A DNA stretch of 33,724 nucleotides from a virus, in IMG/VR virus record IMGVR_UViG_3300020472_000092, positions 1 to 33,724 of that record. One strand, written 5' to 3'. Position 1 is the stretch's first letter. Each line of letters begins with the position of its first letter. Below are positions 13,886 through 19,198 of this stretch, piece by piece. Under the pieces are notes generated by a model, which saw nothing but the letters and a program-made list of their open reading frames with translations, was not told the DNA's origin and made no database searches. The translations under genes were made by a program, and so were the position numbers.

Positions 13886-15943
13886 TTAATTTAATTTCTG
13901 ATTTGTTCTTACTTGCTGGTCGGTTAGAATACCACCAGATGCCACATATTGTTTACTATTACTTGTATTGATGTTATTAACTACTTGGTTTGCTTGATTC
14001 ATAGTTGCATTTCCACCACCACCAGCACCAGCTGCAGCAGATGCAGCTGCATTAATTACAACACCAGATTTTGAACCATAAGCCATCATGTAATCGATAC
14101 TTGCAACTGAAACAGATGGTGTAATAGTTACATGGTCTACTTTATTTAAACCTTTAACTACATAGTCCCACCACTTATCTAAATCTTGGTCATTAAGATG
14201 TTTAATCCCTTCTCCAAGTGCTTCAAAACCTTCTCCAACAGTCTTAAGTGCTTCTGCCTTCTTATCAATTCCTGCTGGTAAATTTGCAACCTTTTCTAGA
14301 GTAGACATCATATCAGTACCAAACAAGGAACCTAAACCAGCACCTATCGCATCCCATACACCTGTTTCTGGTGCATTCTTACCCCATTCATTCATTGCAG
14401 ATGATAGGGTTATAATGCCAGGAGCTGCAGCAGCAAGTGCTTCTCCATCTACTGATTCAAATGCTCTAAGGTCATTTGCCAACTTCACCATTGGTGATTC
14501 ACCATCATCAGTGAAGAAACTACCAACCCAACCTTTAAAGGATGTACCTAGTGAGGTAGATGCAATTGCAGATAATGATTCCATTGCAACACCAAGTGCA
14601 GTGATATTTGATGCAACATCCTTACCTTGTACATTACCTTCTATATTAGGGTCAAATGATTTGAATGAGTTTGCGAGGTCTGGTATACCACCAGATAATT
14701 TACCAGCAACAGATGCTATTGTTCCTATGAATGCAAGTCCAAGTAACCATCCCATAGACTTACCAATCTCTGATATGTTGAAACGAATTGCCTCACCATC
14801 TAAGTCAGTGAATGCCTCAAATCCTTTTGCAAGTTTGACCATACCTAATCCAACCACTATAAGACCAGCACCTAGTACCATAAGTCCAACACCAGCACCA
14901 GCACCTAAAGCTGCAAGTGCAAGTCCTAATGCACCAGCACCTATTACCATTGGCCCTGCAATTGGTGCCATAGATGCAAGAGTCATACCTAAAAGTCTTA
15001 TTGGAGCAGCTAACATTGGTAGAACTACTGCAAGACCTCTAAGTTTTAACATTAGTCCAGCACCACTTCCACCTTTATCACCTTTATCATCACCACCTTT
15101 TGTCTCGACTTCAACCTTCATAGGTTTCTTTCTTTCTTTCTTCTTCTCTCTCCTATCCATTCTCCATTGTTTGAATGAAAGTTTGTCTCGGAGTTTGGCC
15201 ATTGCCATTTTACTCTTTTCCCAGAACTCAGTTCTAGTAAGAGCATGGATAGTCTTCATAAGAAGTTTTCCAGTCATTGATGCAATAGGTTTAAGGAATG
15301 GAATGTTTCCTAATACTGCACTTGCAGGCCCCATAAGACCCATGAAGTCATCTTTAAGACCACCAAATCCATCACCAAGAATATCACCATAAGATTGTTT
15401 ACCAATCTCTTCCCAAGTCTTTTGAGTCCACTTTTTTACTCCAAATAGTAGAGAGTTATTTTGCTTACCCCAGTCTTCATTACTCTTATCGATTGCATCA
15501 ATTTGTGATTGAAGTTCATTTCTCTTAGTCCAACCTTCTTCGGTTGTTTGAAGATTATTCTCTTCTATCGCTTTTATTTCATTTTGCAGTTGGAGTTTTT
15601 CTTGTTCTCTTTTTCCTTGTGATAAAGCGTGTGCGATGAATACATCTTTTTGAATACCAATAGACGAAGCCATTTCTTGATGAACTTCTGGGTTCATCAT
15701 CTTGGCTCTTGTGTCCATCTGGGACTTCTGGAGTGATTCAAGAAGGTCTTCTGACCTCTTGGATTGGTCTTCGGTTAACTTACCTTGTTTGATAAGTTCA
15801 GCATTGTTCTTTTTAAGTTCAGCCTCTTGTACCTTATTAGACGCATCGACCTTTTTCTGCCATTTTTCATTCGTGTCAAATTTACCCTTAGTCTGGGTTC
15901 TTTGCATCGAAGTTGGGTCTACTTTATCAGTGGTGTTCGCCAT
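13886..15943 (-). CDS. 29: Tail tape measure protein (gp29-like)
   Basis: A 685-residue minus-strand protein. Residues 25-160 are a charged coiled coil, 255-290 are very basic then Gly/Asp-rich, and 299-370 are a long hydrophobic Gly/Ala/Leu block. The last 60 residues are Ala/Gly/Asn-rich. A long helical protein with a central hydrophobic block next to the gp26/gp51 chaperones fits a tape measure, which sets tail length and leaves through the tube with the DNA. T4 gp29 is 590 residues, so a slightly longer tail is possible. Direct sequence similarity to T4 gp29 is not obvious to me. Confidence 0.7.
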   Translation of the reverse strand: MANTTDKVDPTSMQRTQTKGKFDTNEKWQKKVDASNKVQEAELKKNNAELIKQGKLTEDQSKRSEDLLESLQKSQMDTRAKMMNPEVHQEMASSIGIQKDVFIAHALSQGKREQEKLQLQNEIKAIEENNLQTTEEGWTKRNELQSQIDAIDKSNEDWGKQNNSLLFGVKKWTQKTWEEIGKQSYGDILGDGFGGLKDDFMGLMGPASAVLGNIPFLKPIASMTGKLLMKTIHALTRTEFWEKSKMAMAKLRDKLSFKQWRMDRREKKKERKKPMKVEVETKGGDDKGDKGGSGAGLMLKLRGLAVVLPMLAAPIRLLGMTLASMAPIAGPMVIGAGALGLALAALGAGAGVGLMVLGAGLIVVGLGMVKLAKGFEAFTDLDGEAIRFNISEIGKSMGWLLGLAFIGTIASVAGKLSGGIPDLANSFKSFDPNIEGNVQGKDVASNITALGVAMESLSAIASTSLGTSFKGWVGSFFTDDGESPMVKLANDLRAFESVDGEALAAAAPGIITLSSAMNEWGKNAPETGVWDAIGAGLGSLFGTDMMSTLEKVANLPAGIDKKAEALKTVGEGFEALGEGIKHLNDQDLDKWWDYVVKGLNKVDHVTITPSVSVASIDYMMAYGSKSGVVINAAASAAAGAGGGGNATMNQANQVVNNINTSNSKQYVASGGILTDQQVRTNQKLN

Positions 15944-15955
15944 TGGTTATCCTAT

Positions 15956-16339
15956 TTACTTATTTGCATCAGCAGCATGGTCTTTGGATGCACTATTAAC
16001 ATATAGTCCAAACCATGCAGCTCCAGCACCTACGAGTATACTAATCAATCCACTTTGTTCCATTGATGGTGCTTCTAAATCTATGAACCACATAACAACG
16101 AAATAAATTAGGAAGATATAAACACTTAAGAATGCTCTTGGCCAAATTCTCCATGCATCGACTGTCTTTGCAAGATGAATCCATTTCTGCCAAGGATTTC
16201 TTTTGTCCTGTAACTCTGGGTCAGTAGCTTCTCTTAGTTTATCTTTTAATTCAGATATTTCTTCGGACATAGCCATAAATTTATCCAAATCAATCTGGAC
16301 TTCATTTCTGGTAGTATCCATTACTACATTGTCTGCCAT
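15956..16339 (-). CDS. Membrane protein with two helices, holin-like
   Basis: A 127-residue minus-strand protein. AGGAG 10 bases upstream supports the ATG at 16339. Residues 14-42 are a charged helix (EEISELKDKLREATD). Two transmembrane segments follow at about 69-87 (FLSVYIFLIYFVVMWFIDL) and 97-114 (GLISILVGAGAAWFGLYV), then a short polar tail. The size and topology resemble phage holins of the two- to three-span class, and it sits between tail genes in a late block. Holin function is inference. Confidence 0.55.
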   Translation of the reverse strand: MADNVVMDTTRNEVQIDLDKFMAMSEEISELKDKLREATDPELQDKRNPWQKWIHLAKTVDAWRIWPRAFLSVYIFLIYFVVMWFIDLEAPSMEQSGLISILVGAGAAWFGLYVNSASKDHAADANK

Positions 16340-16356: not shown

Positions 16357-16548
16357 CTATATTCGGTTCTTTTCTTGTTTTCTTCTTAATTCCTCTTCTT
16401 CTAACCATTGCATAAGAAGAGCAATATAAATTTCCCTTTCCCAAGGCAACTGTCCTTCCAATTCTGCAAGACTATAGTTGTGGTGTTGCATCAATCCAAA
16501 GTTAGTGTTCATATAGTTCACTAAACTTTCATGAGAAAGGGCTAGACG
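16357..16548 (-). CDS. 51: gp51-like tail chaperone domain, expressed by -1 frameshift from gp26
   Basis: The coding stretch runs in the -1 frame relative to gp26 and adds 63 residues: RLALSHESLVNYMNTNFGLM, then QHHNYSLAELEGQLPWERE, ending in a charged helix. It resembles cyanophage gp51 (baseplate hub assembly catalyst). Upstream in this frame there is a stop (TAA) and then no ATG, GTG or TTG before the conserved RLALSHESL block; the first possible starts (GTG, ATG) fall inside the domain. The frame is therefore most easily reached by slippage at UUUUUUC, 16554-16548, making a gp26-gp51 fusion of about 302 residues. It ends 17 bases before the holin-like gene. Confidence 0.72.
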   Translation of the reverse strand, partial: RLALSHESLVNYMNTNFGLMQHHNYSLAELEGQLPWEREIYIALLMQWLEEEELRRKQEKNRI

Positions 16549-16554
16549 AAAAAA
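16498..16554 (-). promoter_or_regulatory. Candidate -1 programmed frameshift signal
   Basis: On the minus strand the zero frame reads AAT TTT TTC, giving the slippery heptamer T TTT TTC (16554-16548), followed two codons later by the gp26 stop. Downstream there is a small hairpin CTTTC/GAAAG (16539-16535 with 16530-16526), starting 8 bases after the slip site. A larger 10-bp stem with one bulge is also possible, AAAGTTTAGTG with CACTAACTTT (16529-16519 with 16507-16498). The two hairpins share bases and may be alternatives. Confidence 0.65.
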
Positions 16555-17264
16555 TTCTGCAAGCCCTGTATTTCCAAAGTATTATGATGTTGACATTCTT
16601 CGCAATCAAACTCTCTAATAAGTTGTAGTCTTGGTAGGTCATCAAAGAACTCTATCATCCTATTGAATTGCTCTGATGACATACTGTCAACAAATTCATG
16701 CAATTCTTTCTTACTAAAGTCTGTTCTATCCCAAACTTGTTCTTCATCATAGACTTGTGAAATACACAAACAAACGATATCGTATAAATCTTCAGCAGAC
16801 AGTTGTTGTACTTCCATCAACTTCTCTTCCACCATTCCAAATGATGGTGCTGATAATCTAACTCCTAAAGTATCGTTAATCTGGACATTGGTAGTACCTT
16901 CCCAATCCACATCCCCTTTTCCAACAGTTGCTTCTTCTAAGTTGACATCTTGTTTATTTTCATGTCCACACTTTTCACATTTAAAGGTTACTGTTGATGA
17001 TTCACCAACAGATTTACATCTCATCTGTAAAAACAACCATTCTAGGTCTGGGCCTGGGATTTTCCTAACATCCAAGTCCTCATTGGTAACACATCCTTGA
17101 GTGACATTAATTAATGCCTTACTCACTACAGGTGCAGTACCATCTTCCATTGCAATTAAAAATATCTTTTGTTCTTTAACTGTAAATGGACGATATCCCA
17201 CTTCAATCTTACTTAATGGTAATTCAGCAGTATATTCTACTTGGTTTACCTTTGGTAATGCCAT
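16542..17264 (-). CDS. 26: Baseplate hub assembly protein gp26
   Basis: A 240-residue homolog of the T4 base plate protein family (gp26). Two CxxC pairs, FKCEKCGHE (Cys96, Cys99) and FDCEECQHH (Cys221, Cys224), probably bind one zinc ion. The N-terminal half carries RPFTVKEQKIFLIAMEDG, typical of the family. It is helical and acidic near the C-terminus. It ends LQNFFV just after a slippery heptamer, and a gp51-like extension follows in the -1 frame. A minus-strand late promoter lies 30 bases upstream. Confidence 0.85.
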   Translation of the reverse strand: MALPKVNQVEYTAELPLSKIEVGYRPFTVKEQKIFLIAMEDGTAPVVSKALINVTQGCVTNEDLDVRKIPGPDLEWLFLQMRCKSVGESSTVTFKCEKCGHENKQDVNLEEATVGKGDVDWEGTTNVQINDTLGVRLSAPSFGMVEEKLMEVQQLSAEDLYDIVCLCISQVYDEEQVWDRTDFSKKELHEFVDSMSSEQFNRMIEFFDDLPRLQLIREFDCEECQHHNTLEIQGLQNFFV

Positions 17265-17303: not shown

Positions 17304-17912
17304 TTAAAATACAACATCCTCTAATTTGGATGTTATTTTCCTTCCTAGTTTCTTCCCAAATTTCTGGAGAATACCACCAAGAAAGGTGTCTGGTTTTGAG
17401 TTAGTAAACTCACTAAACCAAAATCTGTAATTAAACTGTCCAGTGACAGTTTGTATTTCATTGTTGGAGTCTGCACTAAAGGTTGATACCCCTATCTGCA
17501 TCGGCCACGCATCTACCATTACACCTCTGTATGTAACTTGGCTATAATGGTCTACTTGTTCTAAGTAAATGAGTCCCTTGTAATCGTCAAGGTAATTCAT
17601 ATAAAAATCTGGTGCAGGGCTAAATACTGCCTCTTGCCATTTCTCTAACAGTTCTCTATCTTCATAATGGTTTTCTAATCGGAAGGTACAATCAAATGCA
17701 TCGTATTGGGGCATTGTTGGAACTGTTCTTCTAGGCCCATAATCGATTGGTGTTTTAGTCATAAACCCTCTGCCTGGCATTACAGCTGTAGTGCAGTGGA
17801 GTCCTCTCATTCTTAATCCACTAACTGCACCACCAGTACCAAACATTGCAAGGTTGAACCTATTAGTTCTTGCCATTGAGTTTACTTGTGCTTTAAATCT
17901 ATCTATTTTCAT
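17304..17912 (-). CDS. 54: Tail tube initiator gp54-like protein
   Basis: A 202-residue protein of the gp19/gp48/gp54 tube-fold group. The N-terminal ARTNRFNLAMFG, the middle DAFDCTFRLENHYEDRELLE with KWQEAVF, and the C-terminal NNEIQTVTGQFNYRFWFSEF follow the pattern of T4 gp54, where the end reads DNQITTFDVTFAYRVMQ. gp54 starts tube polymerisation on the hub. It is shorter than T4 gp54 (320). A gp19-type tube protein is the alternative, but this one sits with baseplate genes. It overlaps the upstream gene by 4 bases. Confidence 0.65.
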   Translation of the reverse strand: MKIDRFKAQVNSMARTNRFNLAMFGTGGAVSGLRMRGLHCTTAVMPGRGFMTKTPIDYGPRRTVPTMPQYDAFDCTFRLENHYEDRELLEKWQEAVFSPAPDFYMNYLDDYKGLIYLEQVDHYSQVTYRGVMVDAWPMQIGVSTFSADSNNEIQTVTGQFNYRFWFSEFTNSKPDTFLGGILQKFGKKLGRKITSKLEDVVF

Positions 17913-18769: not shown

Positions 18770-19198
18770 TCAAGTCAAGTGGTCTTCTGTTAATATACGA
18801 AATTTGTATCCTCTTTCGACACAATACTCTCTGGCTGCATCCCACTTAAGTTCATTCTTACGATATGTTTTAACTTCTGATATATAACGACCTAATGCCT
18901 TCTTACCACGAACTGGTGGGGCACACTGTTTCTTTGGTTTGACTTCTATTATCTCTCTTTGGAACTTTCCTTGAGCATCTTTATATTCTATCATGAAATC
19001 TGGGAAATAACGATGGAGATTACCATCATCTGTTCGGTAAGGTATAATGACTTCTTCACTAGACCATCTAAGTATATTAGGGTTATCATCACAATATTTC
19101 ATGAATCTTCTTTCCCATAAAGACCTATAAACAATCTTTGTTGGGTCACCTTTATACTTATTATAGTGTTTTGGTTTAAATCTTCCTTTGTAACTCAT
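18770..19198 (-). CDS. 4: Head completion protein gp4
   Basis: A 142-residue homolog of T4 gp4 (also called gp50/65), a nuclease-like protein that finishes the DNA-filled head so that neck and tail can join. The signature DPTKIVYRSLWERRFMKYCD is clear; it is followed by YFPDFMIEYKD and EIIEVKPKKQ, the D...ExK core of a PD-(D/E)XK-type fold. Length matches T4 (150). Its start codon overlaps the divergent late promoter for gene 48. Confidence 0.9.
   Translation of the reverse strand: MSYKGRFKPKHYNKYKGDPTKIVYRSLWERRFMKYCDDNPNILRWSSEEVIIPYRTDDGNLHRYFPDFMIEYKDAQGKFQREIIEVKPKKQCAPPVRGKKALGRYISEVKTYRKNELKWDAAREYCVERGYKFRILTEDHLT

Follow-up and report, generated by a model that had tools for sequence, protein, structure and literature searches.

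A predicted −1 programmed frameshift on a conserved T TTT TTN heptamer joins gp26 and gp51 in T4-like phages

In IMGVR_UViG_3300020472_000092, the 33,724-nucleotide IMG/VR record of a marine T4-like virus (the whole stretch analysed, hereafter the window), gp26 and a gp51-like domain are very probably joined by a −1 programmed frameshift on T TTT TTC, which would yield a short tail assembly chaperone of 240 aa and a long one of 302 aa; we put the probability of this reading at about 0.92. At the level of sequence, it is supported by the conservation of the heptamer, by frame-specific selection, by the lack of a start codon, and by the collinearity of T4 gp51 with the fusion. The slippage itself and the role of the products as tape-measure chaperones are presumed from these data. 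Most ribosomes translating gp26 would stop at TAG 16544–16542 and release the 240-aa short chaperone, and a minority would slip back one base on T TTT TTC (16554–16548) and read on to 16357, producing the 302-aa fusion. By analogy with lambda G/GT, the short form may coat the tape measure protein, and the long form may recruit tail tube or hub subunits. For a pair of this type, the fusion would be the minor product, would bind the tape measure protein, and would not be part of the virion. The elements of the junction are as follows.

16545 to 17264, minus strand (17264 to 16542 with the stop): gp26 ORF, predicted short chaperone (TAC-N), 240 codons before the stop; PF12322, phrog_150.
16548 to 16554, minus strand: slippery heptamer T TTT TTC, of the form X XXY YYZ and in phase with gp26; T TTT TTN in 53 of 60 representatives.
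16542 to 16544, minus strand: gp26 0-frame stop TAG, one codon past the heptamer.
16357 to 16549, minus strand: gp51-like domain (TAC-C) in the −1 frame, counted from the re-read heptamer base; phrog_634, pN/pS 0.25.

The gp26 ORF matched the Pfam family T4_baseplate (PF12322, E = 2.5e-54) and phrog_150 'baseplate hub' (E = 5.4e-54). Its 3′ end reads ...CAG AAT TTT TTC GTC TAG, so the perfect X XXY YYZ heptamer that the earlier note described near the end of gp26 is present and in phase. The −1 frame opens after a stop at 16584–16582, and past the heptamer it reads FF-RLALSHESLVNYMNTNF... up to the fusion stop, TAG 16359–16357. The −1 peptide matched phrog_634 'baseplate hub assembly catalyst' (E = 1.2e-26), and the fusion reads continuously with a predicted length of 302 aa; both the gp51-like domain in the −1 frame and a product near 302 residues had been anticipated from the letters alone. 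The first ATG, GTG, or TTG of this frame is the GTG at 16521, which lies within the conserved block and is not preceded by an SD sequence. The second ORF therefore has no start of its own ahead of the conserved domain, and the earlier description of an upstream stop without a start before the block holds.

Relatives were collected by searching IMG/VR once with gp26 and once with gp51 and by adding named phages, and 60 representatives with less than 15% of their gp26 12-mers in common were chosen. In the first locus set, every locus in which tblastn matched both parts had gp51 in frame −1 to gp26. An in-phase T TTT TTN was found at the gp26 end of 53 of the 60 divergent representatives. The carriers included the Straboviridae KVP40, phiAS5, and PX29; RHph_I9 (Pootjesviridae), Stenotrophomonas phage YB07, Sinorhizobium phage phiM7, Pseudomonas phage pf16, and Astolliot; the pelagiphages Mosig and HTVC008M; and cyanophages. 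The 0-frame stop followed 0 to 3 codons past the heptamer in 51 of 52 representatives. Given the amino acids and the codon usage of each phage, a T-ending codon followed by TTT in all 53 would have a joint probability of ~1e-20 if the loci were independent, a rough guide because the sequences are not. The −1 frame was open after the heptamer in 59 of 59 distinct sequences. The earlier note had proposed to check the conservation of TTTTTTC and of the −1 frame across T4-like marine phages; the heptamer is conserved as T TTT TTN, and the −1 frame is conserved with it. The same note counted loss of the slippery site in homologs against a frameshift; the site was kept in 53 of the 60 representatives but is absent from seven.

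This distribution also bears on a possible artifact, a sequencing error in the T run that falsely splits one continuous gene. Homopolymers are error-prone, and the window is a metagenomic virus contig. However, the same −1 arrangement is present in dozens of independent contigs and in the isolate genomes of KVP40, P-SSM2, and HTVC008M, a recurrence that makes the objection, already raised from the sequence, scarcely credible.

Frame-specific selection was assessed with pooled Nei-Gojobori counts over 17 codons on either side of the heptamer. The pN/pS ratio was 0.25 both in frame 0 upstream of the heptamer and in frame −1 downstream of it, and 1.4 to 1.7 in the other frames. Before the heptamer, the −1 frame contained stops in 62 of 62 sequences. 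Both frames are thus under purifying selection, and the switch of coding frame occurs at the heptamer itself.

An improbable alternative is that no frameshift takes place and gp51 is a separate small protein, whose translation is coupled to that of gp26 or reinitiates at the gp26 stop or directly behind it. It would fit the annotation of gp51 as its own gene in public records and the ATG that overlaps the stop (TAATG or TGATG) in several relatives, such as KVP40 and the loci L021 and L050. In the window, by contrast, no start overlaps the stop, and the earliest candidate is the GTG inside the block. As far as 45 nt beyond the first base of the heptamer, 29 of 52 representatives had no ATG in the −1 frame, and 23 of 52 had no ATG, GTG, or TTG. 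A gp51 start codon in related phages, which the earlier note regarded as contrary evidence, is available to some relatives but not, within this interval, to these 23. Reinitiation would also leave unexplained the switch of coding frame at the heptamer, the conservation of T6, and the fused form of T4 gp51.

T4, unlike the window, has two genes without a frameshift: genes 26 and 51 are separate and divergently oriented. A profile of the frameshifted fusion aligned with T4 gp26 over positions 10–236, ending at the junction (E = 4.7e-30, hhalign 99.5%), and with T4 gp51 over positions 23–281, across the junction (E = 3.8e-17, hhalign 98.3%), these E-values coming from a two-sequence search. The two T4 proteins are themselves related (BLASTP E ~3e-6). 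Because the gp26 alignment stops at the junction and the gp51 alignment spans it, the T4 short and long forms would be two genes, the short form corresponding to T4 gp26 and the fusion to T4 gp51. Cyanophage gp51 was reported to be only ~20% of the length of other gp51 proteins and to lack the first ~200 residues (Sullivan et al. 2010, PMC3037559). This shortness would be explained by the frameshift, with gp26 supplying the missing part.

To characterize possible stimulators, anti-SD pairing and RNA folding were calculated around the junction. Averaged over 52 representatives, anti-SD pairing showed a sharp peak of −6.1 kcal/mol 12 nt before the heptamer, compared with −2.8 kcal/mol or weaker at sampled positions away from the peak. 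In 45 of 52, the pairing energy was lower than that of synonymous-codon shuffles on average (Wilcoxon p ~1e-8, kinship not corrected). The family-level motif is GAGGG, ~9 nt upstream of the heptamer, a spacing similar to that of the E. coli dnaX stimulator. The Glu codon was GAG in 22 of 24 Glu-Gly motifs, even though almost all of these loci encode Glu mostly with GAA. Not every relative has the element, since a freshwater group (L113–L128) has GAA at this position. The SD-like element is the clearest family-level stimulator and was absent from the earlier note's account. On the 3′ side, the mean folding z in 60-nt windows at family level was about −1.2 at +6 to +72, whereas windows away from the site gave values from 0 to −0.4. 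The corresponding elements of the analysed stretch itself are as follows.

16564 to 16567, minus strand: AGGG, a weak SD-like element 9 nt ahead of the heptamer.
16526 to 16539, minus strand: 5-bp hairpin CTTTC-TCAT-GAAAG, 8 nt past the heptamer, not significant alone.

In the window, the pairing energy of the SD-like element was not better than that of synonymous shuffles, the predicted folding of the junction did not stand out from that of shuffled sequence (z 0.00 and −0.60), and an Rfam search with the junction gave no match. Of the two downstream structures proposed earlier, the 5-bp hairpin is present 8 nt beyond the heptamer, whereas the predicted fold lacks the 10-bp stem.

The family-level signals are relevant to transcriptional slippage, in which RNA polymerase slips on the T run and produces mRNAs of two lengths. 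The T run at the site is indeed six or seven bases long. Six bases are few for slippage of this kind, and the fixed codon phase, the flanking SD-like element, and the 3′ folding signal suit the ribosome, so that slippage by the polymerase is very unlikely. Sequencing error, transcriptional slippage, and, for the window, reinitiation were all judged unlikely.

T6 is missing from seven representatives, namely L022 and six loci from Ackermannviridae and other phages (L079–L082, L085, and L091). In the latter six, the 0 frame ends TTTTC-ANN-TAA, as in GR28A (GCTTTCATG TAA). Across these six and L095–L112 (Ackermannviridae and some other phages), TTTTCANN TAA replaces T6 at the junction, yet the −1 frame stays open with the gp51-like domain retained; the Ackermannviridae junction sequence is ATTTTCATTTAA. 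In the Klebsiella and Salmonella members, no ATG, GTG, or TTG lies ahead of the domain start, and the first GTG or ATG of the −1 frame is 32–35 nt past the stop. These heptamer-less junctions could operate by P-site slippage on T TTC or, where TAATG is present, by reinitiation. We see an even chance that the T4-like chaperone frameshift uses a three-part signal (GAGGG ~9 nt upstream, T TTT TTN, and 3′ structure) and that the tandem heptamer has disappeared from some lineages, Ackermannviridae in particular. In these lineages a degenerate TTTTCA would precede the retained −1 domain, and the two parts would have to be joined by slippage of a single tRNA or by some other route.

Two further loci were unusual at the junction. 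S-SCSM1 (L089, about 1980–2180) keeps the heptamer, but a stop ends its −1 frame after a few codons, and the gp51-like domain is encoded in frame +1; this could reflect an insertion, a sequencing error, or a gene with its own start. In Mosig (L074, about 1490–1546), eight further codons of the 0 frame follow the heptamer before the stop, giving the short form an unusual tail.

With regard to gene location, the pair lies among putative tail genes, of which the two relevant here are listed below.

17304 to 17912, minus strand: tail tube-like protein, upstream of gp26; phrog_45 'tail tube', E = 1.9e-20.
13886 to 15943, minus strand: candidate tape measure, a 685-aa ORF two genes downstream, positioned as in HTVC008M.

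The earlier note placed the tape measure two genes downstream of the pair. A 685-aa ORF does occupy that position, where the HTVC008M gene is labelled a putative tape measure and its product hits several tape-measure PHROGs, but the ORF of the window has no family match of its own in Pfam and PHROG searches. A partial T4 gp29 compared by BLAST with the ORFs downstream of gp26 gave nothing convincing. The AlphaFold2 model of gp26, built from 27 sequences, had a pLDDT of 87 and a pTM of 0.82. Its most probable PDB match was the HK97 tail assembly chaperone 2OB9 (probability 0.80, target TM 0.52), a likeness that is suggestive only because E = 0.58. A PDB sequence search with the gp26 alignment returned nothing meaningful, and a search of viral contigs with the Vibrio K489 protein found no relative. 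Since the HK97 match is suggestive and the tape-measure candidate of the window matches no tape-measure PHROG, the chaperone role is put forward as a presumed one; it is in agreement with the literature.

Other features were seen in this region. A small ORF with a hydrophobic stretch (15956–16339, minus strand; phrog_10198, unknown function, E = 1.7e-18) sits between the chaperone pair and the candidate tape measure, and HTVC008M has a small ORF in the same place. A 325-codon open frame (14415–15392, plus strand) runs antisense to the candidate tape measure and is probably a by-product of composition. The head closure protein (phrog_218; 18770–19198, minus strand) also matches the TnsA-like endonuclease N-terminal domain PF08722 (E = 5e-24).

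The slippery sequence of lambda G/GT is GGGAAAG and differs from the window heptamer; the lambda gpG/gpGT device is reportedly due to Levin et al. 1993 and Xu et al. 2004. As predicted for the window, lambda has a short chaperone, gpG, and a −1 frameshifted longer form, gpGT; the lambda pair is encoded between the tail tube and tape measure genes (PMC5009743). The window differs in having a small ORF between the pair and the candidate tape measure, and no sequence similarity to the lambda proteins was shown. Conserved −1 frameshifts with a poly-T motif at the short-form end have also been described for the chaperone loci of Vandenendeviridae and Andersonviridae (PMC12846349), which, unlike the window, carry the motif GTTTTT and belong to other phage families.

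Conservation, selection, and T4 collinearity together support the earlier proposal that a −1 frameshift joins gp26 and gp51 and that the T4-like pair belongs to the G/GT class. That class placement is reportedly the subject of Vladimirov et al. 2022, whose abstract is said to name T4 genes 26 and 51 and to describe frameshifting as conserved in several T4-like groups. In the passages that cite this work, the PRFect paper describes some T4-like phages with one short and one long gene and no frameshift (PMC10885494), and the Adele paper describes poly-T −1 signals in TAC-N genes of T4-like phages, a feature that the window shares (PMC12846349).

Our results support the view that the window pair is a tail assembly chaperone device of G/GT type (TAC-N/TAC-NC), a further member and a rediscovery of the 2022 report; the SD-like stimulator and the heptamer-less lineages, such as Ackermannviridae, are less documented. 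The public records examined either omit gp51 or annotate it as a separate gene, whose start is often placed within or beyond the junction; many marine T4-like genomes therefore probably need a joined CDS. On this evidence, the two T4 hub assembly proteins can be regarded as a single chaperone, with gp26 as its short form and gp51 as its long form.
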